Assembly (NCBI GenBank): GCA_009837725.1
Contig: VXSY01000145.1
Coordinates: forward strand, 1-53,231
Origin: Gammaproteobacteria bacterium
GTDB lineage: Bacteria > Pseudomonadota > Gammaproteobacteria > Pseudomonadales > Azotimanducaceae
Direction of reading: 5' to 3'
DNA length: 53,231 nucleotides
How positions within the stretch are numbered: position 1 is the first letter of the stretch; every line of letters begins with the position of its first letter. Both the position numbers and the translations under genes were made by a program. This document shows, piece after piece, positions 5,984-38,833 of this stretch. Under the pieces are notes generated by a model. That model saw only the letters and a list, made by a program, of their open reading frames with translations, had not been told where the DNA came from and ran no database searches.

Positions 5984-6084
5984 GCCCTCGGAGGGAAGGC
6001 ATCCTGCCTTCCTGGCACTGACCATGCACTTGCCAAAGGCGCCTTGTGGTGCCAGGGAAGGCAGGATGCCTTCCCTCCGAGGGC
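5984..6084. repeat. nested palindromic repeat, GGAGGGAAGGCAT family
   Basis: Two arms, 5984-6018 and 6049-6084, are reverse complements over 35 bp apart from one extra G in the right arm, around a 30-bp spacer. Each arm has a smaller palindrome of its own (GGAAGGCA / TGCCTTCC). A diverged relative with the same core lies at 41035-41148. The 367-bp stretch 5817-6183 holds only this element and the hairpin at 5834; I see no gene in it. It looks like a non-coding dispersed element, possibly a MITE or REP-like sequence, but no target-site duplication was identified. Confidence 0.7.
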
Positions 6085-6183
6085 ACATCCTCGTTCGTCA
6101 ACGCATTACGTTCGCCCTCCACCGTGCCGCGCGCTTCGTGTTGAGCGGTGGGATGGCGTCGGGTGCGGTAATCTGGCTCCCGT

Positions 6184-7536: not shown

Positions 7537-7602
7537 AATGCGCCGCCCACATCCCGCGCCCGACGCAGGGCGCAGGCAACTCACACGAGATAAGGAACGC
7601 AC

Positions 7603-15605: not shown

Positions 15606-15754
15606 CGCGGCGTACCAAGCCGGTGTTGGGGCGCCCCCTCCAAATGGGCGTCCTACAAGCTCGAGGTCCCTTGCGCGCCGGACGAGGTGGCGCGGCTATA
15701 CTGCGCCGCCCAGGCTTCTGCGAGCCTGTTCGGCGTGCGGAGGCGGCAAGCGCT

Positions 15755-20203: not shown

Positions 20204-20349
20204 GCGGGGCCCCGTAGGCTCAACTCTTGAATGACGCCTAGCGGGGCGAATCCGAGGCCGTCGCCACGAGCGCTGGTGAGAAACATCGGCTAAGCGCCTG
20301 CACCGCAGACTTTCGCTCCACTGCCAAACTTGCCGCCCCGAAAATGAGG

Positions 20350-20369
20350 GGGCGTCTTCGCCCTTTTTT
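20350..20369 (+). terminator. intrinsic terminator upstream of the ilv operon
   Basis: GGGCG-TCTT-CGCCC followed directly by six T makes a classical Rho-independent terminator. It lies 147 bp after the stop of the large surface protein gene and 32 bp before the proposed ilv promoter, so it most likely ends the upstream transcript rather than acting as an attenuator. Confidence 0.65.
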
Positions 20370-20401
20370 CTCGGTTGGGGGCAAGGGCACTTGTGCGGTC
20401 T

Positions 20402-20410
20402 TGGTATGAT
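20402..20410 (+). promoter_or_regulatory. candidate extended -10 promoter of the ilv operon
   Basis: TGGTATGAT gives an extended -10 (TGn) directly in front of TATGAT, five of six matches to consensus, 38 bp upstream of the ilvI start. No good -35 box lies at the right distance, which fits an extended -10 promoter. No leader peptide rich in Ile, Val or Leu codons was found in the short leader. Confidence 0.4.
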
Positions 20411-20447
20411 TCGCGCCCTTTTTCGCGAGGGCTGAAGGCGGTTTCCT

Positions 20448-22244: not shown

Positions 22245-23797
<1,553 letters not shown>

Positions 23798-23812
23798 CGC
23801 GGGACCCTCAAC

Positions 23813-26800
23813 GTGTTCGTTGAGCGGCTTGAACCGCGCTTGGATCTCCTGCGCGAGGAGTATGTCCTCGTTCAGGCGTTCAAGAAGACGGCGTCCTACA
23901 TCCGGTACCACAGCTGGTATTCCGACACCCTCGCCCTTGACTTGGCGTCCGCCAACTTGCGGGTGTTTCTCGACGAGATCCGCCAGCGGCTCATGTTGCC
24001 GGAGACTTGGAGTGGTCGCCCTTTGCGCATCGTTCCCGCGCCCAAGAGCCAATCTTGGCAAGTGCGCCAGGGCGTTTGGGGGCCCGTCAAGACTGGCAAG
24101 ACGCCAGGACGGCTTCGACCGTTGGCGCATGTGGACTTAGCTGATCAAGTCGTAGCCACCGCGCTGATGCTCTGCCTCGCTGACCGAATTGAGACGATGC
24201 AGGGAGACCCCCGGCGCGACATACACGACCCCGGCGTGCGTGGACGCGTGGTTTCATATGGGAACCGCTTGTTCTGCGATGACACCAATGGTGAACTGCG
24301 CCACCGGTGGGGATCTTCCAAGCTTTATCGAGCCTACTCCCAGGACTACCAGACGTTCGTCTCCCGCCCTGAAGTAGCGGCCCTGTCGATTTCGCCCACC
24401 GAAAGGCAGCTTGTCTACGTTGTCCACGCCGACCTTAAGCAGTTCTATGACCGCGTGCGCCCGGATCTCCTCTCGGACGCCATTGAGGGCATCCAGCAGG
24501 CAAATGACGACCCGACGTTCTTCTCTCTGATGCGATCGGTGTTCGATTGGCGCTGGCACACGAGTGACGAGCGAGATGTCCAGATCTACGCTGAACAGGC
24601 GGAACTTGCAGACTTCACGCGGGTAGTTTTGCCACAAGGCCTTGTCGCGTCTGGGTTCTTTGCCAACGTCGTGCTGTGTCGATTTGACAATGCGTTGCGC
24701 GAAGCGGTCGGTACCGAAATTTCTGCGGGGATCGTATTGGAGGACGTGTGCCGATACGTCGACGATTTCCGGATTGTCGTGGCGGTTGAAACAACGGCTG
24801 CTGGGCTGAACAACCTCGGCGGCGCCATCTCCCAATGGCTGAGTCATGTGCTGGAGGAGCGTGCGAGCGGGCTTGCGCTCTCGCCGGAGAAGACGCAGGT
24901 AGCGATGCTCAAGGGCAAGGAACTACCGCTGGTCCGGCAAAGCGCCAAGATGAGACGTATCCAGTCCGCGGTATCGGGAGGGTTTGACGCCATTGCGGGC
25001 GAGGAGATAGTGGACGCCCTTCAGGGCTTGATGCGCTCGCAGGAAGCGGCGAGCGATGATGAAGGCGGGTGGCGACTTACGCCAGTTCCCGATGTGCGCG
25101 ACGAGACGGTGGCACGGTTCGCGGCGTTTCGATTCCGTCGCACATTTCGATCGATTAGGCCTTTGTTGGAGAGGGACGATGGGAGGGGTGCGACTCAGCC
25201 CGATGATGTGGATGAATTGGTCGATGTGCGCCGACCGACGCGTACGCAGCGGGAGCTGGATGAGGACGCACGGACGTTCGCGTTGGGCCTCGTCAAGAGA
25301 TGGGTTGATGACCCGTCGAATGTCCGTCTGCTACGCATCGGACTCGACCTCTGGCCGGACGCGGACATTCTGCGCGAGGTTTTGTCACTGCTTCGGCCCT
25401 TCACGGAAAAGGGGGGGCGGCGAAAGGCCCCGCGGCGAGTCGCTTGGTATTGCCTTGCTGAGGTTTTGCGTGCAGGAGCCACGGAGACGGGCTTGGTACC
25501 GGACACCGAGTTGCTCCCGACAGGGCTCGACCTTGTAGCCTATCGGGAAGAGCTTCGCACGGAAGCTATCCGGCTGGTGGCCATATCCGCACGCACGATT
25601 CCTTGGTATCTCCGACAGCAGGCATTGTTGTTTTTGGCGGCATGCGATCCCCACGCCGCACCGTTCACGCTCACGGGAAGAGTGGCAGAGACCCGGCACT
25701 ACCGGGAGCTCATTCGATTCCTGCGTGGCGAAGGAGAGAAGCTCCGGAGTTCCGACTTCGCGACGTTGGCTGTTGTTGCTAGGCGGGCGTTCGTTGGGCA
25801 TGCACGGGCGGTGGAATTGACCCGCCCAAGCTTGACTTCCGTACGGCGGCAGCAACTCGCTCAGCGAGACCCGTCGTTTCTCCTCGAACTCCTTGATGTC
25901 GCTGCGCGCGATCTCCCTGTCGACGGTCTGCCTGCCCGTATCAGTGAAGACCTCTGCCGAGGCGACGATGCCGCCATAGGCCCGCACGAGACCGTAACGC
26001 TGGCCCGGGCAGTGCTGAGTACGCACCCGAGAGATCCCCTTCGTAACGAGCTCTCCATTCCGCGTTTCGCGGCCGCCTTCCTCGAACATTGGATGCAACT
26101 GGAGCCGCCGCCGGACGTTGTCACACCTGGCCAAGTCAGATTGACGCTTGAGGACGACCAAGGCATCACCGATGTAGTTGAACTGGAAATCCTAGCAAGC
26201 CCGACCGCCACATCTGGTTCATTGTACGAGGTACCCGTATGGTGCGAGACCGACGAGCGGTGGCGCTTCCAACTCGGATTCATGCTGCGGTTCATCCTAT
26301 CTGGGCAACCGGACTTCACGCGCCCTGTTGCAAGTACGAGCTGGAAGGAAGAGCAGCCGTCCTATCGTCCGGCCGAGAGCCACTGGTACCAGCGTCTCTA
26401 TGGCCTCTTCAACGGGCAACCGGCCTTTGGGGACGATTGGCTTCCCATCACGGAATGGGTGGAGATGCTCCTATTGGCGCTTCTCCGTTGGCCGGGGTGC
26501 CGCGTCCCGGACTCCTATGGTTGGATCGAGGAAGGGATCGGAGAAACCACGAAGCGAATCAAGGGGCGAGTCGCCGAGTTGGAGCAGATGCGCGGCAACG
26601 CGACCGGTGTCTTGATGCTCCCGCTGTTAACGAAGCGGCCTACTGATACCGAGACAAAGCGGCCGTTGCGGGCTTGTGTGGTACAGACCGTAATCCCTTC
26701 TTCCGGCGACTTTCCGTCCGCAGATGCTGCGACGCTTGATAGCTTGGCGTTTAGTGGTCGAGCCATTCGCCAAAGGCATCGCAGGCATCTGTCGGCAGCG

Positions 26801-27625
26801 CTCGAGGCGGTGAAGCGAATGCTGGAGCTACGCACAACACACAAGGGGGGCAAACCGGAGCTAGATTGGCTGATCCTGCCCGAGCTTGCTGTCCACCCGG
26901 ATGATGTCAGGACGCACCTCTTCCCTTTCGCCCAAGCGTATAGAGCCATGATTCTGACCGGACTGACGTATCAGGAGGTGTTAAGCGGAGATCCGTTGGT
27001 CAATTCGGCACTTTGGATCATCCCGGAGTGGTCAAAAGCGCACGGGCTTCAGATTAAGACTCGCCGACAAGGAAAAGAGCACCTCATGAAGGGCGAGAAA
27101 GACTTCAACAGCCAAGTCCAGCGGCAGATGGTGATGGAGCAGATCGTCCATGTACCCGACACTGGCAGTACGCCAAAGTTGCAGGGCTTTCGGCCCTGCC
27201 AGTGGCTGATCGAGTACCCATGGTCGGCTTCGGATGACGACCCTCCTGTATGGCTGACGGGGGCCGTCTGCTATGACGCGACTGACCTGGGCCTCGCAGC
27301 GGACCTTCGGGACAAGTCGGACATCCTAGCGATACCAGCGCTGAACAAGGACGTGAAGACGTTCGATCAGATGGCCATGGCCTTGCACTACCACATGTTC
27401 CAGCTTGTGGTCGTTGCGAACAACGGTCAGTACGGGGGCAGCAACGCCTACTGGCCCCGGAGCAACCCTCACATCAGACAGGTCTTCCATAACCATGGGC
27501 AACCCCAAGCGTCGATAGCGTTCCTTGAAGTGGACGACATCGGGCGTTTTTTGGAGCGACGCGAAACGGCTAGCACGAACGCCAACGATTGGAAGTACCC
27601 CCCGGCAGGCTTGAACTCGCCGTGA
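23813..27625 (+). CDS. defence-associated reverse transcriptase-nitrilase fusion (DRT type 1-like)
   Basis: This 1270-residue protein joins an N-terminal reverse transcriptase to a C-terminal nitrilase-like domain. That is the architecture of the UG1/UG5-type RTs; UG1 is known as DRT type 1 antiphage systems. RT motifs in order are: motif A VVHADLKQFYD with Asp207, motif B LPQGLVASGFFANVVL, motif C CRYVDDF at residues 313-319 with Asp317 and Asp318, and motif D LALSPEKTQVAML. The nitrilase part has a plausible Glu1024 (LPELAVH), Lys1088 (GKEHLMKGE) and Cys1153 (GAVCYDATD) triad. The 500-residue middle is helical-looking and unrecognised. The start is GTG, 15 nt behind ilvC, and base composition is visibly less GC-rich than ilv. 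No retron or DGR elements are seen beside it. Confidence 0.85.
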   Translation: MFVERLEPRLDLLREEYVLVQAFKKTASYIRYHSWYSDTLALDLASANLRVFLDEIRQRLMLPETWSGRPLRIVPAPKSQSWQVRQGVWGPVKTGKTPGRLRPLAHVDLADQVVATALMLCLADRIETMQGDPRRDIHDPGVRGRVVSYGNRLFCDDTNGELRHRWGSSKLYRAYSQDYQTFVSRPEVAALSISPTERQLVYVVHADLKQFYDRVRPDLLSDAIEGIQQANDDPTFFSLMRSVFDWRWHTSDERDVQIYAEQAELADFTRVVLPQGLVASGFFANVVLCRFDNALREAVGTEISAGIVLEDVCRYVDDFRIVVAVETTAAGLNNLGGAISQWLSHVLEERASGLALSPEKTQVAMLKGKELPLVRQSAKMRRIQSAVSGGFDAIAGEEIVDALQGLMRSQEAASDDEGGWRLTPVPDVRDETVARFAAFRFRRTFRSIRPLLERDDGRGATQPDDVDELVDVRRPTRTQRELDEDARTFALGLVKRWVDDPSNVRLLRIGLDLWPDADILREVLSLLRPFTEKGGRRKAPRRVAWYCLAEVLRAGATETGLVPDTELLPTGLDLVAYREELRTEAIRLVAISARTIPWYLRQQALLFLAACDPHAAPFTLTGRVAETRHYRELIRFLRGEGEKLRSSDFATLAVVARRAFVGHARAVELTRPSLTSVRRQQLAQRDPSFLLELLDVAARDLPVDGLPARISEDLCRGDDAAIGPHETVTLARAVLSTHPRDPLRNELSIPRFAAAFLEHWMQLEPPPDVVTPGQVRLTLEDDQGITDVVELEILASPTATSGSLYEVPVWCETDERWRFQLGFMLRFILSGQPDFTRPVASTSWKEEQPSYRPAESHWYQRLYGLFNGQPAFGDDWLPITEWVEMLLLALLRWPGCRVPDSYGWIEEGIGETTKRIKGRVAELEQMRGNATGVLMLPLLTKRPTDTETKRPLRACVVQTVIPSSGDFPSADAATLDSLAFSGRAIRQRHRRHLSAALEAVKRMLELRTTHKGGKPELDWLILPELAVHPDDVRTHLFPFAQAYRAMILTGLTYQEVLSGDPLVNSALWIIPEWSKAHGLQIKTRRQGKEHLMKGEKDFNSQVQRQMVMEQIVHVPDTGSTPKLQGFRPCQWLIEYPWSASDDDPPVWLTGAVCYDATDLGLAADLRDKSDILAIPALNKDVKTFDQMAMALHYHMFQLVVVANNGQYGGSNAYWPRSNPHIRQVFHNHGQPQASIAFLEVDDIGRFLERRETASTNANDWKYPPAGLNSP

Positions 27626-30600
27626 TCAACCCGCCGCATTGCCTCGTGCTTGATCCGTCCCAAACCTCGTGCTGACATACGCTTTGGCGTCCTCGTCGCC
27701 CAGCCGAACTGATCCCGGACCGCTCCGAACGTAGAGGTCGCCTCCGGTCGTTTTCTCTAGGCCCTTCCAACAGAGGTACACCGGCTCTGGGCTCCGCTGG
27801 CAGCTCACAAGACAGACCGTCTTCCCATCAACGATTTGCGTTTTGGGATCGATGCATGTGCCGGCGCGGGCTCCGAGGCTGTTGCGGACGGACTGTGCCA
27901 AGTGGCGCATGAATTTGTCGTCGCTTGCCAGGCGGTCGTGCTCGATACCCAACACGTTGCCGTCGTCGTCTACGCCGATGAGGAGGTCGCCACCTTCGGT
28001 GTTTAGGAACGCCGCGATCGTCTTCAAGGCGGCGTGCGTGATGTGCTTGTCGTCCTTGCGATCCTCCTTCAGATTCCAGCGGAGGCTCGACTTGAACTCC
28101 AGGGTCTTGGACTCTTGCATCTTGAGCAGGTCCTCAATCCGCCGGTGACGACGGATGTAATCGTCAAACAGGAAGTTCTTGACTTGCTGGCCGAAGGCGG
28201 GATCGTCGGTGATGCGCCGGTAGAGGTCGAAGTTGGTCTCGACGATTTCCTGAATCTTGTCCTCCACCTTGGGATCGAAGGTCAATCGCACGTTCTCGCG
28301 GGTGTTGGTGCGCGCACTGGCGTCGAGACCTTCGTCACCGTCTAGGGCAGAGCGGATTTGGTCGAGAGTTATGCGGTGCTCGGGGCCTAGGTTCAGGCCG
28401 AAGCGCTCGTTCAGCGCCTCGATGATGTGCGAGAGAGGCTCCAGCTCCTCGCCCTGGGTGCTCGTGGCGGCTTTGCTTCCTGCGGGTTCGAGCGGTTGCG
28501 CTTGGCGTTCCAACGCAATCTGGCCATGGCTCGTCTGCTCGATGCGGAAGGACTCCATGTCGATGTTCTGGCGCACTTCGAGCGGCAACTCTTCTGGATT
28601 GGCCGGGAGCAGGCGACGCAGGTAACGCGCGAAGACGTAGAGCTTCTCCAGATCGGTGTCGGCGAACGTCAACACCTGTGACAGGAAGGCGTACATGCGG
28701 GCGTAGTCCGCGAGTTGGCGGCGGAACTCCCGCCCCTCGTCATCGTTCAGTTCAGCGAAACGCTGACGTGACGGCTCCAATGCCGTGTACAGCGCGTCTT
28801 GGCTCACCTTCACCTTGAAGAACACCTTGGCGAAGCTCTCAACATCTTCTTCGGCGAACACGCCGGAATCGAGGAGCCGGGCCTGTACCTCGTACAGGAG
28901 GTTGGGGTCGGTTTCCTCCGATAGGAGCGTTGTCTCGTAGTAGGGCTGAAACGCCTCCTTGATATCTTCCGCTTCGTTGGCGAAATCCAGAACCATCGTG
29001 CCCCGCTTGCCCTCGAACGTGCGGTTCAGGCGTGACAGCGTTTGAACGGCATTGACGCCACCGAGTTTCTTGTCCACGTACATCGTGTGCAGCAGCGGCT
29101 GGTCGAAGCCCGTCTGGAACTTGCTCGCGACCACCAAGAAGCGGTACGGGCGCTTGTCGAACTCGGCGGCTGTCTGCCGCTCGCCGATAGCGCGATCCTT
29201 GCCCGCGGAGTTCATTCCTGACTCTGTGTAAGACTGGCCACCATCGTTCACCGTTCCGGAGAATGCGACGAGCGCTTGCCAAGGGTGCCCGTTTGCCTTC
29301 AGGTAATGGTCCAGCGCGAGCTTCGTACGCACCGCATGCAGGCGCGAGCGTGTGACGATCATCGCCTTGGCGCGACCGTCAATCTCAGTCGCAACTTGTG
29401 CGGCGAAATGGTTCACGCAAATGGCGACCTTTTCGTCGATCGCATGAGGATGCAGTTCCACGAACGACTTGAGCAGGTACTCCGCCTTTTTCTTTTCGTA
29501 GCGCGGGTCGTCCTCGATCTTCTTGAGCAAGCGCCAATACGCGGTGTAGGTGGTGTAGTTTGCGAGCACGTCGAGGATGAAGCCCTCCTCGATCGCCTGA
29601 CGCATCGTGTAGCGGTGGAACGGTTCGAACTTGCCGTCGAGGCGCTTGCGGCCAAAGAGCTCGAGAGTCTTGGGCTTCGGAGTTGCGGTGAAGGCGAACG
29701 TCGAGAGGTTGGGCAGTCGCCCTCGGCTTTGAATCTCCTGAAGGACTCGGTCCTCGATCTCCTCTTCTGGCGTTTCGGCGCTCGCTTCTTCCTGCTCGGC
29801 ATCTTCGAGGCTTTCTGTCGCTAGCACCTCCTTCAGGCTCTTCGTGCTCTCCCCGGACTGCGACGAGTGCGCTTCGTCCACAATCACCGCGAATCGCTGC
29901 CCGGGAAGCTGCCCGATTTGTTCGGAGATGACGGGGAACTTCTGCAGCGTGGTGACGATGATCGTCCTGCCGGCTTCCAGCGCCTCGCGGAGTTGGCGCG
30001 ATGTCTGATCGATGTTCTCGACCACGCCGAGGGTCTGCTCGAACTGGCGGATCGCGCGCTGAAGCTGCCTGTCGAGGATGCGCCTGTCCGTCACCACGAT
30101 GACCGAATCGAAGACGCGCAGGTCTTCATGGTCATGCAGCACAGAGAGTTGATGCGCCAGCCAGGCGATCGTGAAGCTCTTGCCACTGCCCGCCGAATGC
30201 TGGATCAGGTAATGCCCACCCGCCCCCCTCTCGCGGGCGTCCTGCACTAGCTCGCGCACGCAGGCGAGTTGCTGGTAGCGCGGAAAGATCAGGAACCGTT
30301 CCCCAGTCTTGCGGCCACGGTCATCCTGCAGCTCAACTTCGTGGATAAACTGGCGGATGAGGTCCAGCACGCTGCCCTGCGCCCAGACCTCTTCCCAGAG
30401 ATAGCTGGTGGGATAGCCCGGCTGCGTTGGTGGAACCGGTGGATTCCCCGCACCGCCGTAGCGACCTTGATTGAAGGGCAAGAACCGCGTCTTGGGTCCG
30501 GCGAGTTGGGTTGTGACGAACACCTGTTCTGGATCGACAGCGAAATGGGCGAGGCAACGCCCGTAGGCGAAGAGCGGCTCGCGTGGATCCCGGTCCGTGC

Positions 30601-31180
30601 AGTATTGTTGGATCGCATCCTGTACGTCTTGTCCGTTCAGCAGATTCTTGAGTTCAGCCGTGAAGATCGGAATGCCATTCAGGAACAGCGCGATGTCGAG
30701 GCTTTGCTCATTTTGCTCACTGAAGCGGAGTTGCCGTACGACTGTGAAGAGATTCGCTGCACGAAGACGATGCAGCTCTTCGTTGAGACCACTTGCCGGA
30801 CGGAAGTACGCAAGGCGGAACTTGCAGCCTGAGTCCTTGATGCCGTTGCGAAGCACGTCTAGGCCGCCACGGCGCCCGATTTCGCGGGACAGGCGGCCAA
30901 GGAAGCGCGGCTTTAGGTCGGAGCCGTGGTGCTGTTCGAGCTTGGCCCATTCCTTTGGTTGCGTTGCCAGCAGGAAGTTAACGACGTCGGTTGGAAGCAG
31001 ACACAGCTTGCGGTCGTACTGCTCGGGGCGACGTTTGCTGTAGGCGCCTGGAACCGTGCCGATGTCGTACGGCGGCCGGGATTCCTGCACCTCGTTGCCG
31101 ATTTCTGGCTCGTCCGCGATGTGCAGCAAGGCACGTTCGATTGCGTCCTCGAAAGCTCGTTCCGATATGCCTATGGTCAC
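27626..31180 (-). CDS. hsdR: type I restriction endonuclease R subunit (HsdR) with C-terminal AlbA_2 (Schlafen-type) domain
   Basis: This 1184-residue motor-nuclease cuts DNA lacking the host methylation pattern. The nuclease site is Asp162 and Glu176-Leu-Lys178 (LDIALF...TAELKN). The SF2 helicase shows Walker A HSAGSGKSFT (328-337), DEAH at 435-438, FAFTATPK near 496-503 and a motif VI-like QTLSRLNRTF. After the usual HsdR C-terminus there is an extra domain from about residue 1021: ESKTLEFKSSLRWNLK, then KTIAAFLNTEGGDLLIGVDDDG, the signature of AlbA_2 domains as in Schlafen-like proteins. The paired Glu1023/Glu1028 resemble the nuclease acids of Schlafens. The start codon overlaps the hsdS stop by 4 nt. 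The stop abuts the stop of the RT gene on the other strand. Confidence 0.88.
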   Translation of the reverse strand: MTIGISERAFEDAIERALLHIADEPEIGNEVQESRPPYDIGTVPGAYSKRRPEQYDRKLCLLPTDVVNFLLATQPKEWAKLEQHHGSDLKPRFLGRLSREIGRRGGLDVLRNGIKDSGCKFRLAYFRPASGLNEELHRLRAANLFTVVRQLRFSEQNEQSLDIALFLNGIPIFTAELKNLLNGQDVQDAIQQYCTDRDPREPLFAYGRCLAHFAVDPEQVFVTTQLAGPKTRFLPFNQGRYGGAGNPPVPPTQPGYPTSYLWEEVWAQGSVLDLIRQFIHEVELQDDRGRKTGERFLIFPRYQQLACVRELVQDARERGAGGHYLIQHSAGSGKSFTIAWLAHQLSVLHDHEDLRVFDSVIVVTDRRILDRQLQRAIRQFEQTLGVVENIDQTSRQLREALEAGRTIIVTTLQKFPVISEQIGQLPGQRFAVIVDEAHSSQSGESTKSLKEVLATESLEDAEQEEASAETPEEEIEDRVLQEIQSRGRLPNLSTFAFTATPKPKTLELFGRKRLDGKFEPFHRYTMRQAIEEGFILDVLANYTTYTAYWRLLKKIEDDPRYEKKKAEYLLKSFVELHPHAIDEKVAICVNHFAAQVATEIDGRAKAMIVTRSRLHAVRTKLALDHYLKANGHPWQALVAFSGTVNDGGQSYTESGMNSAGKDRAIGERQTAAEFDKRPYRFLVVASKFQTGFDQPLLHTMYVDKKLGGVNAVQTLSRLNRTFEGKRGTMVLDFANEAEDIKEAFQPYYETTLLSEETDPNLLYEVQARLLDSGVFAEEDVESFAKVFFKVKVSQDALYTALEPSRQRFAELNDDEGREFRRQLADYARMYAFLSQVLTFADTDLEKLYVFARYLRRLLPANPEELPLEVRQNIDMESFRIEQTSHGQIALERQAQPLEPAGSKAATSTQGEELEPLSHIIEALNERFGLNLGPEHRITLDQIRSALDGDEGLDASARTNTRENVRLTFDPKVEDKIQEIVETNFDLYRRITDDPAFGQQVKNFLFDDYIRRHRRIEDLLKMQESKTLEFKSSLRWNLKEDRKDDKHITHAALKTIAAFLNTEGGDLLIGVDDDGNVLGIEHDRLASDDKFMRHLAQSVRNSLGARAGTCIDPKTQIVDGKTVCLVSCQRSPEPVYLCWKGLEKTTGGDLYVRSGPGSVRLGDEDAKAYVSTRFGTDQARGNAAG

Positions 31181-32475
31181 GACGCTTCCTCCCGGATGTT
31201 GATCTTGCCTGTTACGGCGGCGTAGATCAGAGCGGCCCGGAACTCCATTAGGCGGTCAATGGCCTCTTCAACCTGGGCGACCAGACGATCTACTTTCGCC
31301 GTTTCGCGGTCGAGCAGTTCTGAGATGCCGCGCTGTTCATTCAGCGGCGGAAACGGAAAGCGGTAATGCCGCAATCGGACTGCGGTGAGGTGGTCGATCG
31401 TATTCGGATTGCCGCCTGCGGAGAACACGCCTGATGTCGCTAGCGCCCGCATCACGAAGTAGAAATACCGTGGCAACTCAGATGCAGTTCGGGGTCGAAC
31501 CCGATGAATGGCCTTTTGGTAGAAACACTCTTCGAGTTCACCGGCCCAAATCGCTGACCTGCCCACCTCGCCTCCTTCACAAACTAGAAGGTCGCCCGGG
31601 CTTAGTCGGTATCGTTTGCGGTCCGATGGCGTGAAGTCCATTTCGGCGAGCTCCTGAACATTGATTTTGTCCCACTGGACATCGACGTTGCGCAGGTATT
31701 TGCCTGATGACAGGCCGGTGAGATTCTTCGAATCCAGCATCTTCCCTAGCTCGACTTCGTAACGCGCATAGACGGGAGCGATGTCCCAATGCGCCGGAAC
31801 CTTGCCCAGCCATGGGACGCCGGAATCTTCTTTGGGGACGCTTGTGTCCAGGCCCCGCACAATTGTCCGGGTGATGAGAGCGGCGCGTTTCTCCTGAAGT
31901 AGCTCGATCATTCGCCCCTTGCTCGCCACCAATGCATCAATCTTCATCGTCTCCCTGTCAAGGAAATCGGCGATCTTCCGCTGCTCCGACATCGAACCGA
32001 CCGCAATTCGACGTGCGTATGCATCTTCTCGGTCCAGCCCGGGTATCGCCGAGTCCTTCGAAGCTGCGTCCAGCCGGGCGTTTTGCAATGCGTAGTAGAG
32101 CCAACGAATGTTCCCCTTCGTGTATCGGCTATCCGTGAAGAACGTCGTGTCTATGGCGAATGCATCACTTTCGGTGTAGGTGACCTTTCCGAACGAGCCC
32201 TTCCGGCCCACGATCAGGGAAGGCCCTTGTGTGTTGGCTCTGTCGTGCTTGCCAATCGGGCCATTCGACCCAAACACATCCACATCCCCGTCGCCGCGGT
32301 CAGTTGCCGCAAGAGAATCGCCGTAGCAAAGCCGACAAACTCGCTTGATTGGGAGGGCATGCCAATTCTTCGGAATGGCGCCTAATGAGCTGTCCGCGGA
32401 GTCCTTGCAATCGTCGGCACGGCGGACCTTCCATGCCCGCCGGCTTTCACCTCCTTGGCCCTTCGACCCGCTCAT
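31177..32475 (-). CDS. hsdS: type I restriction-modification specificity subunit (HsdS)
   Basis: This 432-residue subunit chooses the DNA target for both methylation and restriction. It has two target-recognition domains, each ending in a conserved helical spacer: SEQRKIADFLDRETMKIDAL (first half) and NEQRGISELLDRETAKVDRL (second half). The matching phrases show the internal repeat usual for HsdS. The ATG at 32475 is chosen because it overlaps the abiEii stop in ATGA form; the frame is open 20 codons further. Its own stop overlaps the hsdR start by 4 nt. The recognition sequence cannot be predicted by eye. Confidence 0.88.
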   Translation of the reverse strand: MSGSKGQGGESRRAWKVRRADDCKDSADSSLGAIPKNWHALPIKRVCRLCYGDSLAATDRGDGDVDVFGSNGPIGKHDRANTQGPSLIVGRKGSFGKVTYTESDAFAIDTTFFTDSRYTKGNIRWLYYALQNARLDAASKDSAIPGLDREDAYARRIAVGSMSEQRKIADFLDRETMKIDALVASKGRMIELLQEKRAALITRTIVRGLDTSVPKEDSGVPWLGKVPAHWDIAPVYARYEVELGKMLDSKNLTGLSSGKYLRNVDVQWDKINVQELAEMDFTPSDRKRYRLSPGDLLVCEGGEVGRSAIWAGELEECFYQKAIHRVRPRTASELPRYFYFVMRALATSGVFSAGGNPNTIDHLTAVRLRHYRFPFPPLNEQRGISELLDRETAKVDRLVAQVEEAIDRLMEFRAALIYAAVTGKINIREEAS

Positions 32476-33428
32476 TGCGCTTTCGCTGGTCGCGGGGCGA
32501 ACTCTGCGGATTGCCAAGGGCCGCCAGCTAGCCACACTTGCAGGTGAGAGCGGCCCGCGATAACACTGTCGCTGACGGGGCCGAGGAAGCGTCGGATTTC
32601 GTCGCCAGTATCCACGAGTCGCACTGGCCCGTCGATTTCAGCGGCCATCTGTCGTCGCAACACCTGCCAGCGGTGGTCTCGGTCCACGTCCTCGTAGTAG
32701 CTCGGGAGCAAGGCCATGGGTCTTCCCGCGCCGAGGCTCGTCTGGCGCCGTCGAAACGTCTCCTCGACCGCTGCCCTGAGCGTCTCGCCGTCGAAGGGGA
32801 ACAGGCGGGCCATGCACGCAACATCCCAAAGGTCCTTCACGCGGGTATTCCTCGTGCCCAAGCTCACCATCGCCTCGAACTTCTCGGCCACGACGGTCTC
32901 GCGCGGGTAGGTCCACAGGCGAGGCGCTGGGAGGTCGAGCATCGTTGGGTAATCCCGTTCCTCGCGCCCAGGCGTAATCGCGTCGCCAAACCCCACGTCC
33001 ATTTGAAGCGTCAGACGGGCCTGGCCCAAGTTGCCCAAAACTCGCGCCCGCAGGCTTGAGTACTCCTGATCATGCTGGGCGTCGCGGATGTGAACCGCAG
33101 TCGGGTCGAACACGATGCCGTCTTCGGGACAAGACGCTCCGCAAATGGCCTGCACGATCTCACGCAGCCCCTGACGAACTTCACGTCCCGAACCGAGGAA
33201 ATCCACGTCCTTTGTCGGGCGCAGTTCATTTGCCGACCAGACGCGGTATAGCGCCGCTCCCTTGAGCGTGAACTCGTCGACGAACGGCGAAATCGTGAGT
33301 CGGTAAAGAAAACGCTCGGCAACATAGCGCTGGAGGATGCGGTTGAACTCCTCCCCGCGTTCGCGCGCGAGGTCCAGCAGGCGCCGGTGAACCGAAGCGG
33401 GGTAGTTGCGAATCTGCTTGGATGTCAT
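32472..33428 (-). CDS. abiEii: AbiEii/AbiGii-type nucleotidyltransferase toxin
   Basis: This 318-residue protein matches the AbiEii toxin family of type IV toxin-antitoxin/abortive-infection systems, a DNA polymerase beta-like nucleotidyltransferase. Relatives block growth by modifying RNA or nucleotides, and some (MenT-type) attack tRNA. The site is TLKGAALYRVW (about residues 54-64) followed by RPTKDVDFLG with Asp74 and Asp76. Further family residues are VVAEKFEAMVSLGTRNTRVKDLWD near 179-202. It overlaps abiEi by 4 nt on one side and hsdS by 4 nt on the other, so it is embedded inside the R-M operon. Confidence 0.86.
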   Translation of the reverse strand: MTSKQIRNYPASVHRRLLDLARERGEEFNRILQRYVAERFLYRLTISPFVDEFTLKGAALYRVWSANELRPTKDVDFLGSGREVRQGLREIVQAICGASCPEDGIVFDPTAVHIRDAQHDQEYSSLRARVLGNLGQARLTLQMDVGFGDAITPGREERDYPTMLDLPAPRLWTYPRETVVAEKFEAMVSLGTRNTRVKDLWDVACMARLFPFDGETLRAAVEETFRRRQTSLGAGRPMALLPSYYEDVDRDHRWQVLRRQMAAEIDGPVRLVDTGDEIRRFLGPVSDSVIAGRSHLQVWLAGGPWQSAEFAPRPAKAQ

Positions 33429-34057
33429 GTCGAGAGCACCTCAAGGGCCGGGCCGACGAGGGATTTCGCGCGACAGACTTCGGCCGCACGCCAGATTTCG
33501 TCTGCGCTAGCCTTGCGATCACGCAGTGCTTCCCGCAGCGCCTCTAGAGCCACATCCTTGCCGACGATGCGCCGGAAGCGGAAGCAGTCGACGACGGTAC
33601 GCGCCGGGCTGGTAATGCGGGCCGGAACGCCCTCGAAGGCGATGTCCTGGACCCCGTAGTGCAGGGACGCACTGGAGAAGCGTATGACTCTGATGGGGAA
33701 CTCTGCCACGCGTGGCGGGCGGGCCTTGTGGGGGATGGCCATCCACAACTCTCTTGGGAGCTGCGTACCGAGGCGGTGTACCACCAGAGCGGATAGCAGG
33801 CAGACGATCGCGCCAGGCACTCGTGCGCACATGGCCCCAAGGGAGTAGTGCTCGGACGTCGTGGCTGCCGCCCAGCGGTAGAGACCACGACCGACACGCT
33901 CTACGGTACCGCCCTTGACCAGACCTTGTAGTCTATAGGCATTCACTCCGAGGTCTGCCGCGTCACGAGGCCGAAAAAAAGCCTGGCCGACTAGACCGCG
34001 CAAGCGCTCGGCGTTCAATTCGCTGGCGGGAGTGGCAATGTTGGCAGCCGTGGACAT
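33425..34057 (-). CDS. abiEi: AbiEi-type antitoxin/transcriptional regulator
   Basis: This 210-residue protein fits the AbiEi antitoxin family: an N-terminal winged helix (FRPRDAADLGVNAYRLQGLVKGGTVERVGRGLYRW, about residues 28-62) and a C-terminal domain with ALVVHRLGTQLPRELWMAIPH and ITSPARTVVDCFRFR. In studied systems AbiEi neutralises AbiEii without binding it and represses its own promoter through inverted repeats. The gene precedes abiEii with an ATGA overlap. An inverted repeat over a candidate -35 box lies 60-100 bp upstream, which fits self-repression. No clear Shine-Dalgarno sequence precedes the ATG. Confidence 0.84.
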   Translation of the reverse strand: MSTAANIATPASELNAERLRGLVGQAFFRPRDAADLGVNAYRLQGLVKGGTVERVGRGLYRWAAATTSEHYSLGAMCARVPGAIVCLLSALVVHRLGTQLPRELWMAIPHKARPPRVAEFPIRVIRFSSASLHYGVQDIAFEGVPARITSPARTVVDCFRFRRIVGKDVALEALREALRDRKASADEIWRAAEVCRAKSLVGPALEVLST

Positions 34058-34093
34058 TGAGATTGCCGTCTGGTTTGAGAAGGAACGAGGGGG

Positions 34094-34159
34094 ACCCTAG
34101 CTAATGCCGTCGTTGCTGTCAAATTGTCGGCAATAGAACGTGTCTGCCGACATTTTGAC
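34094..34159 (-). promoter_or_regulatory. candidate AbiEi-repressed promoter with palindromic operator
   Basis: Reading on the minus strand, a perfect -35 TTGACA (34117-34122) is followed by a 17-nt spacer and TAGGGT (34094-34099), a weak -10. An inverted repeat overlaps the -35: GTCAAATTGTCGGCA at 34118-34132 and TGCCGACATTTTGAC at 34145-34159, 15-bp arms with one mismatch and a 12-nt spacer. The site lies between hsdM and abiEi, so it would drive abiEi-abiEii-hsdS-hsdR separately from hsdM. Confidence 0.6.
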
Positions 34160-34163
34160 GAAC

Positions 34164-36275
34164 TTACGCAGTAACTTCGCGGAGCATCGCGAGGATCTCC
34201 TGTTCCACCTCTTGGATGTCGGCCTGAATGTCTTCCAGCTCTCGTGGCGGACGGTATTCGTAGAAGTAGCGGTTGAAGTTGATCTCGTATCCGACGATGC
34301 CTACCTTCCCGTCTTGCGAGTCACAGCGTGCGGTATTGATCCACGCGTCTGGCACGTGGGGCCTTACCTCTCGGTTGAAGAACGCATCGACATCTTCGAG
34401 TAGCGGCACGTTTTCGGTGTCGCGGAGCTCGGGGTCTGGCTCAGGCTGCCCCTCCCGGTCGCGGCAGATTAGGGCACTCTCGTTGCGTTCCGCCAGCGCG
34501 GAGAGGATCGCCTTGCGGATGGGACCGGCGAGTTTGAGACCTGCGGTTGCAGCGGCGTCGGCGAGTTCGGCATCGAACTCCGCACGGTCCAGAAATAGCT
34601 TGTCCGGGAGTTGGTGAAGCATCGCCCGTATCGCGGCTTGGTGCTGTTGACCTGCTTCCTTGTCCTTTGCCTTGGCATCCCCTCGCTTGCGCGAGACCGC
34701 TAGGTTGATAAAGGCCCGCTCGTCGTCCAAGCGTGAGATTCGTTCGGGGTTAGCTTGGAAGTCCAAGCGAAGAGGGCGCTCCACAGTGATCTTTCGGAAC
34801 CCGAAATGGGTCGTGGGGTAGACGTGACTAACGATGGTCTGGCGCTCTTCGCCGTCCTCCTCCACCCTTCGCTTCGCCCCGTCGCTGAACTCTTCGAGCA
34901 GGCAGAGGATGTCCTGCTTTCGGTCGAACGGGACTTCCCGGCGCTTGGCACCGAGGCTCTTGCGAAGCTGCGTCCAGAAAGAGGTGGCGTCGATGAGTTG
35001 AACCTTGCCCTCACGCTCCGGGCGTTTGCGGTTGGTGAGGAGCCACACATACGTCGCGATGCCCGTGTTGTAGAAGAGCTGCTCGGGCAGCGCGATCAGC
35101 GCTTCGAGTAGGTCGTTTTCGAGGATCCACCGTCGAATCTCGCTTTCGCCGCTGCCCGCGTCCCCAGTGAAGAGCGGTGAGCCGTTCATGATGATGGCGA
35201 TGCGCGAGCCGCCCTCGTCGGGTTCCTTTACGTGCCCAAGCATGTGCAAGAGGAACAGGAGCTGACCATCGCTGATCCGAGGCAGCCCTGGCGCAAACCT
35301 GCCGCTTTCTCCCCGTTCGTGTTCAACACGCACGGTGTCTTGGTCGCGCTTCCAATCCTTGCCATACGGCGGATTGGCGATCATGTACTCGAAGCCGGTG
35401 CCCGGGTGACGGTCGTTCGAGAGCGTGCTGCCAAAGAGAATGCTTTCCGCATCGCGGCCGTTCTGCGACTTCATGTAGAGGTCGGACTTGCAGATGGCGA
35501 AGGTCTCCGGGTTCACCTCTTGGCCGAATACGTGGATGTCTGCTTCCTGATTCACCGGGTCGCCAAGCTTCTCGCCGTCCCGGATCTCCCCGACTGTGAT
35601 GTGCTCCTTGGTGATGGTGAGCATGCCGCCAGAGCCGCAGCAGGGGTCGTAAACGGACCGGATGATGCCCTGCGTCTGTAGCTGCTTCTCGTCGCCTGCC
35701 AGGAGCAGATCGACCATCAGGTGGACGACATCCCGTGGCGTGAAGTGCTCACCCGGATTCTCGTTCAGGGCTTCGTTGAACTTGCGGATGAGCTCCTCAA
35801 AGATCGTGCCCATCGTGAAGTTGTCGACGGCGTCTGGGTGCAGGTTCACCTTCTTGTCGGCGAACTGCTGCACGACTTGGTACAGCAGACCCGATTCGTC
35901 GAGCTTCGCGATCGTGTTGTCGAAGTCGAACTTCTCCAGCACTTCGCGCATGTTCGAACTGAAACCGGCGATGTAGTTCCGCAGGTTCGCGGCAATGTTG
36001 GGGGCATCGGCCAAGAGTCGGTCGAAGTCGTATCGGGACGTGTTGTAAAAGGCGAAACCGGACGCGCGCTGAAGTTGCGGCTCAAGGTTGTCGATCTTGT
36101 CCTTGTAGGTGGCCTGCACCTCGAGCACTTTCACCTTCGTCGGGGCAAGCACGCAATCAAGGCGCCGCAGGACGGTGAAAGGGAGGATGACGTCTTGGTA
36201 CTTGCCGCGCTTGAAGGTGTCACGGATGAGGTCGGCGACGCCCCAGATGAAGCTGACAATCTGGCTGTGATTCAT
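34164..36275 (-). CDS. hsdM: type I restriction-modification methyltransferase subunit (HsdM)
   Basis: This 703-residue N6-adenine methyltransferase protects host DNA and is part of the restriction complex. The N-terminal HsdM domain starts at SFIWGVADLIRDTFKRGKYQ. The SAM-binding motif is DPCCGSGGML (about residues 212-221) and the catalytic motif IV is NPPY in MIANPPYGKDW (about residues 303-313). It is longer than the roughly 500-residue classical HsdM, with an extended C-terminal half. The ATG at 36275 is preceded by GGGAG; a TTG at 36287 is possible. It is the first gene of the locus and is separated from abiEi by 106 nt, unlike the other four genes, which overlap. Confidence 0.9.
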   Translation of the reverse strand: MNHSQIVSFIWGVADLIRDTFKRGKYQDVILPFTVLRRLDCVLAPTKVKVLEVQATYKDKIDNLEPQLQRASGFAFYNTSRYDFDRLLADAPNIAANLRNYIAGFSSNMREVLEKFDFDNTIAKLDESGLLYQVVQQFADKKVNLHPDAVDNFTMGTIFEELIRKFNEALNENPGEHFTPRDVVHLMVDLLLAGDEKQLQTQGIIRSVYDPCCGSGGMLTITKEHITVGEIRDGEKLGDPVNQEADIHVFGQEVNPETFAICKSDLYMKSQNGRDAESILFGSTLSNDRHPGTGFEYMIANPPYGKDWKRDQDTVRVEHERGESGRFAPGLPRISDGQLLFLLHMLGHVKEPDEGGSRIAIIMNGSPLFTGDAGSGESEIRRWILENDLLEALIALPEQLFYNTGIATYVWLLTNRKRPEREGKVQLIDATSFWTQLRKSLGAKRREVPFDRKQDILCLLEEFSDGAKRRVEEDGEERQTIVSHVYPTTHFGFRKITVERPLRLDFQANPERISRLDDERAFINLAVSRKRGDAKAKDKEAGQQHQAAIRAMLHQLPDKLFLDRAEFDAELADAAATAGLKLAGPIRKAILSALAERNESALICRDREGQPEPDPELRDTENVPLLEDVDAFFNREVRPHVPDAWINTARCDSQDGKVGIVGYEINFNRYFYEYRPPRELEDIQADIQEVEQEILAMLREVTA

Positions 36276-36392
36276 CCTGACTCCCAAAGCCTGTAACCGT
36301 TGCCGCAGGAGAGGGCCGGCCGACCCCCCGTTGCCGCTACGCGAAGATTCTATGGGATTACTTGGCTCTGCGGACTCGGCCGAGAGACGCGT

Positions 36393-36917
36393 TCAATCGC
36401 CCGGCAGGACCCGAGTGCAAAGGCTCTGGTGGCGGGCTGGTTCGGCGTCGCGGTCGATGGCGTTGCAGGTCTCGTAGGCGATGCGAGCCTGTTGGACGAC
36501 AAAGGCTCGAATCGCTTCGGCGTCCTTCGTGCTGATGCTCGCCTTGAATGCCGGCATGCCGCCGGTGGCGTAGATGCCCTCAACGACGATTGCGTTCCAG
36601 GACCTGTGCACCGCAATGGGGGAGTAGCGAAGGTCCGAGGTCGCGCTGTCGGACACAGCCTCGTCGCCGTGGCACGAGGCGCACATGGCCGCGTAGAGCG
36701 AAGCGCCCCGGTCCACTTCCTCCCCGGTGGCTTCTAGCACTGGTGGTTCGGGGAGCTCCACGCGAAACTCGAACTCGGCTTCGTCGGGCGCGCTTTCGGC
36801 CGTCGCCTGTCCCGCCGCTATTGCGCTACACGCGACCGCCAAGACGGCGACTGCCCTTCGCGCGTAGCGCGCGGCGCCCGGTGTCGAAGCGGCCGACTCC
36901 CGCCACATCGGCGTCAT
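36393..36917 (-). CDS. secreted c-type cytochrome (class I)
   Basis: This 174-residue protein has an N-terminal hydrophobic export signal (RRAVAVLAVACSAIAAGQATA, residues 21-41) and one haem-binding motif CASCH at residues 79-83, preceded by RGASLYAAM. The axial Met is probably in GGMPAFKA. The domain resembles the cytochrome c module found at the C-terminus of PQQ-dependent alcohol dehydrogenases, but here it stands alone. It should carry electrons in the periplasm; its partner is not in the window. The ATG at 36917 overlaps the stop of the ABC exporter gene in ATGA form, so it is translated at the end of that operon. The functional link with an exporter is unclear. Confidence 0.8.
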   Translation of the reverse strand: MTPMWRESAASTPGAARYARRAVAVLAVACSAIAAGQATAESAPDEAEFEFRVELPEPPVLEATGEEVDRGASLYAAMCASCHGDEAVSDSATSDLRYSPIAVHRSWNAIVVEGIYATGGMPAFKASISTKDAEAIRAFVVQQARIAYETCNAIDRDAEPARHQSLCTRVLPGD

Positions 36918-38833
36918 GCGCCTTCCGGCTGCATGTCCGACGTTCCCCAATCCTGCGTCGTCTCGTTCAGGCTTTGCTGGCGGTATAGCTGGGCGTAGTG
37001 GCCCTGGGCGGCCATCAGTTCTTCGTGGGCGCCGAGTTCCACCAGCTCGCCACCGTCGATGACCGCGATGCGGGTGGCGTTGCGGATGGTGGAGAGCCGG
37101 TGGGCGATGACGAAGCTGATGCGGCCCGAGAGCACGTTCGTGAGGCCCTGCTGGATGCGCTGCTCAGTTTCGGTGTCCACCGACGAGGTGGCCTCGTCCA
37201 TCACGAGGATCTGCGGATCCGCGAGGATGGCGCGGGCGAATGACACGAGCTGCTTCTGGCCGGCAGAGAGGCGGCCGCCGCCTTCGCCCACCTCGGTGTC
37301 GTAGCCGTCTTCCATCGCCGCGATGAAGTCGTGAGCGCCGGCCAACACCGCGGCGGCTTTCACTTCTTCGTCGATGGCGTCGAGCCGACCGTAGCGGATG
37401 TTCTCCATGATGGAGCCGCTGAAGACGTGGGCGTTCTGCAAGACGATGCCGAGGTTCGACTGCAACCAGTGCAGGCTGCGGGTGCGATAGTCCACCCCGT
37501 CGATCAGCACCTGGCCGCTCACCGGCTCGTAGAACCGGCAGACGAGGTTGACGAGCGTGCTCTTGCCGCCGCCTGTGGGGCCGACGATGGCGATGGTCTC
37601 GCCGCTTTCCACCGCAAGGCTCACGTCGCGCAGCACCGGCCGGCGGGCGTCGTAGTGAAACGCCACGTTTTTGAGCTCGATGCGGCGGATGGCCTGGGCG
37701 CCGCCGTCGTGGGCGATGCGCGAGCGTGGCGGCGCACCGGATTCGTCCGCGGCCCGCTGCGCCGCGATGGCGCGCTTCACGCTCTCGGAATCCTCGATCT
37801 CCGGCTGCGCGTCGATGAGGCTCAAGACGCGCTCCGCCGACGCCTGCGCCATCTGCATTTCGGCGAACCAGTAGCCCATCATCTCCACCGGATCGAAGAA
37901 GTGCCGTGCCCAGACCATGAAGACGATCAGCGTCCCCGCGCCCACGAGGCCAAGGCTCATCTGCCAGCCGCCCACGGCCAGTGTCAGGTTCACCGACACC
38001 GCGCTGAAGATCAGCACCACCGGCAGGAAGATGGCCGCCAGCACCATGTTGCGCACCGAGGCGCCGTACATGGTGTGGGTGAGGTCGCCAAACTCGGCGC
38101 GGTTCGCGTCCTCGCGCACGAACGCCTTGCTGGTGAGCACGCCCATGATGCCTTCGTTGTAGGAGCCGGTGATGCGCGAGTTGGTGGCGCGCACGAGCCG
38201 GGCGCTCGTCAGGATGCTGCGGCGAAACTTGGCCGACACCCACGCCACCGCCGGCATCACTGCCAGCACCACCAGCGCAAGCTGCCAGTTGAGCACGAAC
38301 ATGACGACGGCGATGGAGAGCATCATCGTGCCGCCCCAGATGAAGTCGAGAAAGCCCCAAGCAAGGATGTTCGTCAGCCGCTCGCAATCGGCGGTCATGC
38401 GCGCCATCAGCCAGCCCACCGGACGATAGTCGTAGAACGAGAACGACAGCCGCTGCAGGTTGGCGAAGGCTTCCCGGCGCAGGTCGTGGCTGGCGGAGAC
38501 GCGAATCTGCCCCGCCACCCAGACGAAGGCGGCGACGGAGAGCGCCAAGAGCACGTTGCAGCCGAGCGCCACCATGCCCCAGAGCACGAAGTCGGCATCG
38601 GCGCCGTTCTCGGTCACATCATCGACGATCCACTTGGCCACCATCGCCGGATACACGGCCTCGAGCACGCCCGTAAGCGCTGCGGAGATGCCGAGCGCGG
38701 TCAACTGCCCGCGATAGGGCAGGATGAAGCCGAACAGGCGCTTCCACAGGTTCAGGTTGACGGATTCGGCGGCGGCGGCCTCGTCGAAGCCGTCCTGGAA
38801 GTTCTCGTCGTCGTAGTTGTCCACTTCAGCCAC
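36914..38833 (-). CDS. ABC exporter, membrane-ATPase half (consensus Walker B partner)
   Basis: This 639-residue half-transporter has six membrane helices, then an ATPase domain with Walker A GPTGGGKST, signature LSAGQKQLVSFARA and Walker B ILVMDEATSSVD with the catalytic Glu present. The signature LSAGQ departs from LSGGQ. It resembles the MdlB/YheH type, one side of heterodimeric exporters that move lipids, drugs or peptides outward. The start is GTG at 38833, preceded by GGGAGAG; the gene overlaps the end of its partner by 8 nt. The long upstream open frame is not used, because it would overlap the partner over 100 nt. The substrate is unknown. Confidence 0.88.
   Translation of the reverse strand: MAEVDNYDDENFQDGFDEAAAAESVNLNLWKRLFGFILPYRGQLTALGISAALTGVLEAVYPAMVAKWIVDDVTENGADADFVLWGMVALGCNVLLALSVAAFVWVAGQIRVSASHDLRREAFANLQRLSFSFYDYRPVGWLMARMTADCERLTNILAWGFLDFIWGGTMMLSIAVVMFVLNWQLALVVLAVMPAVAWVSAKFRRSILTSARLVRATNSRITGSYNEGIMGVLTSKAFVREDANRAEFGDLTHTMYGASVRNMVLAAIFLPVVLIFSAVSVNLTLAVGGWQMSLGLVGAGTLIVFMVWARHFFDPVEMMGYWFAEMQMAQASAERVLSLIDAQPEIEDSESVKRAIAAQRAADESGAPPRSRIAHDGGAQAIRRIELKNVAFHYDARRPVLRDVSLAVESGETIAIVGPTGGGKSTLVNLVCRFYEPVSGQVLIDGVDYRTRSLHWLQSNLGIVLQNAHVFSGSIMENIRYGRLDAIDEEVKAAAVLAGAHDFIAAMEDGYDTEVGEGGGRLSAGQKQLVSFARAILADPQILVMDEATSSVDTETEQRIQQGLTNVLSGRISFVIAHRLSTIRNATRIAVIDGGELVELGAHEELMAAQGHYAQLYRQQSLNETTQDWGTSDMQPEGA

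Follow-up and report, generated by a model that had tools for sequence, protein, structure and literature searches.

A type I restriction-modification operon with an embedded AbiE pair recurs across phyla and lies beside a DRT1 gene in a gammaproteobacterial genome

Results

Gene content of the locus

The window analyzed in this work is a stretch of 53,231 nucleotides, contig C165 (GenBank VXSY01000145.1), from a gammaproteobacterium (Pseudomonadales; Azotimanducaceae) whose assembly comprises 4.66 Mb in 303 contigs. Between ilvC, which ends at 23797, and a cytochrome-c-like gene (36393-36926, minus strand; Pfam Cytochrome_CBB3), the window carries an insert of 12.6 kb (23796..36388). The insert contains a five-gene type I restriction-modification (R-M) operon with an AbiE toxin-antitoxin (TA) pair inside and, converging on it, a gene for DRT1, a protein made of a reverse transcriptase (RT) and a nitrilase. 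The initial annotation had listed RT-nitrilase, AbiEi/AbiEii and HsdMSR as the modules of this region, and all six genes were found where it had placed them.

The operon lies on the minus strand. Its first gene, hsdM (34164..36275), encodes the type I methyltransferase (Pfam HsdM_N and N6_Mtase; PADLOC MTase_I, 889.8 bits). It is followed by abiEi (33425..34057), which encodes the antitoxin and predicted DNA-binding regulator (Pfam AbiEi_4; PADLOC AbiEi, 214.6 bits), and by abiEii (32472..33428), which encodes the nucleotidyltransferase toxin of a type IV TA system (Pfam AbiEii, 3.6e-39; PADLOC, 307.8 bits). The last two genes are hsdS (31177..32475), for the specificity subunit (Pfam Methylase_S, in two stretches), and hsdR (27626..31180), for the restriction subunit (Pfam; PADLOC REase_I). 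By Pfam, the domain set is that of a type I R-M system: HsdM_N and N6_Mtase in HsdM, two target domains in HsdS, and HSDR_N plus helicase in HsdR. A SLFN_AlbA_2 (Schlafen) domain is also detected at the C-terminal end of HsdR (Pfam; residues 1023-1159, 27704-28114, minus strand); neither this domain nor the dyad described below was mentioned in the initial annotation.

From abiEi onwards, consecutive genes share 4-bp stop/start overlaps: ATGA at both the abiEi/abiEii and the abiEii/hsdS junctions, and GTGA at hsdS/hsdR. The overlap with the abiEii stop codon assumes that hsdS starts at the ATG at 32475, which we favor over the GTG listed at 32535. The position of AbiEi directly upstream of AbiEii, with an ATGA overlap, is the layout of AbiE systems, which are classified as type IV TA in the available text of PMC3985639.

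The hsd-AbiE operon recurs in many phyla

HsdM from the window and from two relatives in its genus, without AbiE, served as query against a genome collection of 84,980 species; the operons that supplied the three seeds all carry AbiE. Of 198 relatives found, the best 80 (63-85% identical) were kept; together with the window and G014 they make a set of 82 loci. hsdM is complete in 80 of them (the exceptions are L177 and L179), and hsdS is found downstream in 62; the 18 loci with no hsdS in sight were left outside the counts made on these 62. G003 was not counted because it lies on the same contig as L106, and L115/L116 and L111/L113 are near copies. According to their titles, the 80 relatives belong to Acidobacteria, Chloroflexi, Planctomycetota, Gemmatimonadetes, Cyanobacteria (Microcystis, Cyanobium), Rokubacteria, Myxococcota, Armatimonadetes, Gammaproteobacteria and others.

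AbiEi is present in 50 of the 62 loci, 49 times between hsdM and hsdS and once (L150) between hsdS and hsdR; the other 12 lack it. In 38 loci AbiEii spans 250 or more model positions; it appears as two open-frame pieces in 2 (G014 and L145, treated as AbiEii-bearing in the dyad counts below and as short in the locus tally), and is reduced to a short remnant in L104 and L171. No AbiEii is found in 8 AbiEi-bearing loci, and 10 loci have AbiEi without a full AbiEii. Residues G57, D74, D76, K183, D199 and D202, which we take to be the nucleotidyltransferase motif residues, are each present in 40 or 41 of the 41 full-length hsd-linked AbiEii proteins. The AlbA_2 domain of HsdR is more variable: among 51 loci with the hsdR start in view it is present in 30, absent in 13 and cut in 8.

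Further away from this family, no AbiE was found in 9 hsd loci with HsdM 26-50% identical (3 more had no hsdM on the stretch), nor in 9 viral hsdM relatives (38-44% identical) within the stretch available. On plasmids, the best matches of the 805 records with hsdM relatives were all below 60% identity. In the HsdM tree, which carries long-branch warnings, a branch with support 100 separates 78 rows from the 13 of the outgroup, and 6 of the 12 AbiE-less loci fall in the two groups nearest the outgroup. Thirteen AbiEi-only rows are scattered over the tree (12 changes, with 232 of 500 shuffles as low), some of them on contigs that end early.

The gaps between hsdM and hsdS and between hsdS and hsdR also harbor other cassettes. 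When 20 of 111 candidate frames were scanned, 17 had a Pfam match, and the genes detected (L102-L181) include GmrSD, Fic, macro-domain, IrrE plus DUF4411, DUF1016 nuclease, SIR2 and AAA_14-DUF4143. In L105, which has no AbiEi, a 43-residue AbiEii end lies beside a GmrSD-AlbA_2 gene. In L151 both gaps of the hsd operon hold an AbiE pair, the second with a short AbiEii that may be broken. In L158 a gene for an RVT_1 reverse transcriptase (6060-7550), possibly a group II intron, sits between an intact and a partial copy of hsdM.

On the basis of gene order and content, the recurrence of hsdM-abiEi-abiEii-hsdS-hsdR as a five-gene unit across phyla is well supported.

A conserved dyad precedes abiEi

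The gap between hsdM and abiEi in the window contains a dyad without mismatches, TGTCGGCA-N12-TGCCGACA (34125..34152, minus strand), which is a candidate AbiEi operator. The dyad continues outward for 7 bp on each side with one mismatch (34118-34159). A promoter-like sequence with a weak -10, TTGACA-N17-TAGGGT (34094..34122, minus strand), adjoins it. Given the 4-bp overlaps described above, dyad and promoter-like site head an overlapping antitoxin-toxin-specificity-restriction cluster, and hsdM lies before it. AbiEi proteins are reported to repress their own synthesis through upstream inverted repeats (PMC7319586, available text), and an inverted repeat at the position of such an operator is what the sequence of this locus offers.

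The form TGTCGGCA-N12/13-TGCCGACA was detected upstream of abiEi in 41 of 61 AbiEi loci, versus 2 of 6100 shuffles. By class, it is found in 31 of 43 loci with both AbiEi and AbiEii, in 5 of 10 with AbiEi and no full AbiEii, and in 5 of 8 where hsdS is not in view. It was detected in none of 12 AbiEi-less loci and in none of 75 regions upstream of hsdM, and the hsdM of the window has none within 300 nt. A scan of 1.31 Mb from the 82 loci, allowing up to 2 mismatches and spacers of 8-18, yielded 53 matches; 48 are upstream of abiEi, all with a spacer of 12 or 13. A plain inverted-repeat score was less clear than the motif test (28 of 60 loci scored higher than every one of 20 shuffles). Among 30 AbiE loci of Acidobacteriota, described below, 9 have the dyad: 6 are hsd-linked, and L265, L267 and L271 are outside the hsd family of the window. 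The dyad also precedes abiEi in one of 25 solitary AbiE loci (L084), and it remains next to abiEi in loci where other sequence parts it from hsdM (see below). Sequence comparison thus indicates that the dyad goes with AbiEi.

The dyad consensus includes a TTG within the spacer or directly after the right arm, and a promoter-like TTGnnn-N16..19-TAnnnT overlaps or adjoins 21 of the 48 dyads (36 of 960 shuffles). In L107, L111, L140, L170, L176 and L181 an ATG is found 6 or 7 bases past the -10, which would point to leaderless messages if that ATG is the start of abiEi.

Many loci have a strong dyad after hsdM, which might also be read as an intrinsic terminator or attenuator rather than as an operator. 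We consider this quite improbable: the spacer is fixed at 12 or 13, no T-run follows the site in the window, the -35-like TTG is inside or just past the dyad, and the dyad is missing from all 12 AbiEi-less loci. Furthermore, in L107, L111, L112, L113, L174 and L176 the dyad keeps its place close to abiEi, with hsdM about 1 kb or more away.

DRT1 is found apart from the hsd-AbiE operon

The DRT1 gene (23813..27625, plus strand) encodes 1270 amino acids. The full-length RT plus nitrilase architecture of Drt1a is recognized by the PADLOC model PDLC03745 over residues 5-1267 with 1235 bits, while the other Drt1a model gives 392 bits; the match with PDB 9yfd has an E value of 4e-112. The RT part has the sequence RYVDD, presumably the catalytic YxDD motif, aligned to RYVDD of 9yfd. 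In the nitrilase part PELAVHP aligns with SELAVHP of 9yfd, in an alignment that ends before the cysteine, and GAVCYD was read by eye in the translation. The available text of PMC13275509 describes, for the member of PDB 9yfd, untemplated protein-primed DNA synthesis that controls a nitrilase effector. The likeness to the window protein extends over the entire length, RT and C-terminal nitrilase. The published priming serine, S402, stands opposite a glutamate in the window protein, in a gapped stretch aligned with low confidence. By analogy with that member, DRT1 of the window may act alone, through untemplated protein-primed synthesis and its nitrilase effector.

DRT1 and the R-M operon are physically close in the extreme: the 3' ends of DRT1 and hsdR abut with zero bases between the stop codons (TGATCA on the plus strand), as had been pointed out in the initial annotation. 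This arrangement was, however, found at no other locus examined. No DRT1 was detected in the flanks of the 80 hsdM relatives (up to 10 kb per side; many contigs are shorter), and no hsd or abiE genes of the window type were detected near any of 10 DRT1 loci within the stretches fetched (G009; G575, G363, G448 and G389; the partial G397, G468 and G414; and two plasmid loci, examined out of 6 matching records). Fifty of the 80 hsd loci were taken for a search of the whole genome, and DRT1 was found in 2 of 50, once on the same contig but 1.37 Mb from the hsd locus (G721) and once on a different contig (G759). For comparison, a search for the Drt1a family retrieved 8 of 398 genomes sampled from the phylum of the window, its own genome included. 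Among 57 other relatives, only G009 has a full-length DRT1 (67% identity), and the hsd family of the window is not nearby; G014 gave a weak partial match (E 5.7e-5). These results come from protein and family searches, as a scan of genome contigs with the DRT1 protein of the window alone matched 25 stretches and confirmed none. A type I endonuclease-methyltransferase fusion is annotated about 7 kb from DRT1 in one of the plasmid loci, so DRT1 can sit near other R-M genes.

The edges of the insert were set at 23796 and 36388 because a genome of the same genus, G010 (locus L217), carries the empty site. In a blastn comparison, L217 aligns with the window up to 23795 on the ilvC side and from 36389 on the other; its ilvC is 96% identical, the cytochrome gene is 74 bp away, and none of the six insert genes lies in between. 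A single insertion event is possible, as one empty site covers the entire insert. The initial annotation also proposed to look for the ordered set behind ilvC in relatives, and there it was not borne out: the insert genes are behind ilvC in none of the 14 other genomes of the genus whose contigs continue past ilvC (in the 15th, G005, the contig ends 117 bp after ilvC). The ilvC position was accordingly rejected as a shared insertion site. The cytochrome gene itself is not in the stretch beyond ilvC in 13 of the 14 genus genomes other than G010, the 14th being G005.

As predicted, the insert is less GC-rich than its surroundings, with 0.585-0.621 in 1.5-kb windows against 0.621-0.677 elsewhere in the window (about 0.63 in the adjacent ilv genes). 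GC3 is lower in all six insert genes (0.66-0.78) than in the six flanking genes measured (0.79-0.90, the cytochrome gene being only narrowly higher); the overall GC of the abiE genes (0.63-0.64) is not below that of the ilv genes. The claim that no mobile-element genes lie inside also stood, as Pfam shows no integrase or transposase domains in the six insert proteins. No tRNA genes were found in the window.

Contiguity of six genes, similarly lowered GC and GC3, gapless convergence and an empty site that spans everything would all be accommodated if the 12.6 kb, DRT1 included, were one co-selected defense unit. We regard this as very improbable and as largely refuted already, for the pair was not seen in the stretches examined around the 80 hsd loci and the 10 DRT1 loci, and the two hsd genomes with DRT1 have it elsewhere. 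A single hsd-AbiE-DRT1 unit was therefore rejected. The idea of one composite unit survives for its R-M/AbiE half, whose ordered genes are found again in unrelated genomes, but not for DRT1, which does not accompany it; occurrence in separate places without excess co-occurrence, which the initial annotation had named as the outcome against it, is found for the RT and not for hsd and abiE. From sequence, DRT1 looks like an independent neighbor of the hsd-AbiE operon, outside the unit.

Elsewhere in the window, a 1526-aa open frame (15623-20203, plus strand) overlaps a 499-aa frame (19028-20527, minus strand); neither has a Pfam match at 1e-4, and at least one of the two is probably not a gene.

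AbiEi as a possible regulator of the restriction half

We infer a regulatory role of AbiEi in this operon from its sequence. The reading that we consider probable is that the insert holds two independent modules, DRT1 and the five-gene R-M operon, and that in the latter AbiEi represses an internal promoter that serves toxin, HsdS and HsdR but not HsdM. AbiEi would bind the dyad and repress this promoter; it would autoregulate its own toxin and also set the levels of HsdS and HsdR, and hsdM would be transcribed outside AbiEi control. A drop in AbiEi, for instance when a phage shuts off host expression, would release AbiEii and the restriction half together. The outcome would be restriction backed by growth arrest.

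The history of the AbiE pair bears on this proposal. The AbiEi tree, with 106 rows, contains a clade of 52 (support 100/99, in a bootstrap that is not fully settled) made of 50 hsd-linked rows and 2 with no hsd in sight; rows L162/A_L251 and L161/A_L257 are identical. Several captures of AbiE are likely because 13 other hsd-linked rows fall outside this clade. Distance correlations are high for HsdM-HsdR (r 0.877) and AbiEi-AbiEii (0.757), and lower for HsdM-AbiEii (0.412) and HsdM-AbiEi (0.118). Distances and tree together indicate that the AbiEi-AbiEii pair moves as such, mostly among hsd operons of the window's family. Vertical coinheritance of AbiEi with HsdM is not claimed, since phylogenetic congruence is weak.

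The proposed regulation is favored by the frequency of AbiEi between hsdM and hsdS, the dyad and promoter-like pattern upstream of abiEi, the largely hsd-linked AbiEi clade, the retention of AbiEi where full AbiEii is lacking, the independence of DRT1 and the autorepression reported for other AbiEi proteins. A number of observations weigh against it. (i). The HsdM-AbiEi correlation is weak (Mantel r 0.118, with 24 of 999 permutations as high) beside that of HsdM-HsdR; the AbiE cassette is therefore frequently swapped. (ii). AbiE at large is mostly found apart from this hsd family. In drawn samples, where several contigs end close to the gene, window-type hsd genes were beside AbiE in none of 25 AbiEii loci of the class, the own genome aside (274 genomes; stretch fetched). 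In the phylum of L111, Acidobacteriota, 36 of 247 genomes have AbiEii, and 30 loci were examined out of 39 matches; window-type hsd genes accompany AbiE in 6 of the 30 (3 with hsdM directly, L111 and L113, and the broken L268/L300). In L300 (G809), a wider view of L268, an intact AbiE lies between partial hsdM and hsdR pieces, and this TA pair seems to have outlived its R-M system. In L298, AbiE is found without hsd in the 19 kb seen. (iii). The dyad is upstream of abiEi in only 1 of 25 solitary AbiE loci (L084), 24 being without it. At the stringency chosen it is also missing in 20 of the 61 AbiEi loci, among them 5 of the 10 that have AbiEi only, and L106 from the genus of the window; other dyads are present in some loci of this kind (L139, L146 and L153). 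(iv). At 27 of the 48 dyads there is no promoter pattern, and the -10 of the window is weak. (v). Persistence of AbiEi alone is no proof of a regulatory role because loss of the toxin before the antitoxin is expected in any TA pair.

Not included in the 6 of 30 are L250, with a partial HsdS match behind AbiEii, and L265, with an hsdR 46% identical about 1.6 kb in front of AbiE. In L302 (G857) and L301 (G988), AbiE lies beside other R-M pieces: a partial HsdS directly behind AbiEii and a 46%-identical hsdR before abiEi.

Several of these data would fit an alternative in which AbiE is a passenger: the hsd gaps would be a hotspot for defense and TA cassettes, AbiE would regulate itself, and read-through would make hsdS and hsdR indifferent to it. 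The variety of cassettes in the same gaps, the AbiEii remnant beside GmrSD-AlbA_2 in L105, the weak HsdM-AbiEi correlation and the survival of AbiE in L300 all speak in its favor. We nevertheless consider it rather unlikely, as AbiEi, in 50 of 62 loci, outnumbers every other cassette in the scanned set, the majority of hsd-linked AbiEi belong to one clade nearly confined to hsd, AbiEi persists without the toxin, and a 4-bp overlap couples abiEii to hsdS in the window.

The persistence of AbiEi was examined at the codon level. In seven pairs of AbiEi-only loci, both members without a full AbiEii, differences amount to 0.16-0.28 at codon position 1, 0.11-0.20 at position 2 and 0.47-0.60 at position 3. 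The frequency of changes at position 3 is thus about 2- to 5-fold that at positions 1 and 2, and no stops are found; this signature of a coding sequence kept without a full toxin is suggestive only. A stronger form of the proposed regulation can be put forward tentatively, at somewhat less than an even chance: the captured antitoxin would have become a dedicated repressor of the HsdS/HsdR half, with HsdM outside, and a drop in AbiEi would raise restriction and toxin. The toxin would be dispensable and repeatedly lost, and the regulator (with the operator in half of the cases) would stay.

Discussion

None of DRT1, AbiE and type I R-M is new by itself, and TA or suicide genes inside hsd operons are known as well. 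To our knowledge, little is known about the transcriptional control of type I R-M beyond the case of RptR. The RptR-RMS-DarTG2 island of enteropathogenic E. coli (PMC12255303, available text) resembles the operon described here in having a TA pair inside a type I R-M operon and a DNA-binding operon repressor. However, its TA lies between hsdS and hsdR and not, like AbiE in the window, between hsdM and hsdS; and its repressor is a separate first gene acting at the island promoter, whereas here the antitoxin itself would act at an internal site. AbiE of Streptococcus agalactiae and the COG5340 pairs (PMC3985639 and PMC7319586, available text) share the order AbiEi-AbiEii, inverted repeats in an upstream position and antitoxin autorepression, the latter predicted in our case. 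The published pairs are presented as two-gene operons, while here two restriction genes follow in an overlapping cluster. The EcoprrI type IC hsd locus (PMC3710099 and PMC12707154, available text) likewise encodes a suicide effector inside an hsd operon; this effector, PrrC, is an anticodon nuclease restrained by the R-M complex, whereas AbiEii is a nucleotidyltransferase paired with a cognate antitoxin.

No account of AbiE as a standard component of a type I R-M family was found in the open-access literature searched, including the available text of PMC12988326, PMC10354927, PMC10924106 and PMC10121019; most subscription papers were outside the search, and prior notice is possible. With regard to DRT1 plus R-M, the locus is an ordinary defense island. 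The AbiE-bearing type I R-M operon is a well-supported recurrent variant for which no description was found, and AbiEi is its putative regulator.

One hsd family appears to serve as a chassis for interchangeable cassettes, AbiE being the commonest seen. With its spread over phyla and a conserved dyad inside the operon, this family lends itself to a direct test of whether an antitoxin controls how much restriction takes place and ties restriction to a suicide response.

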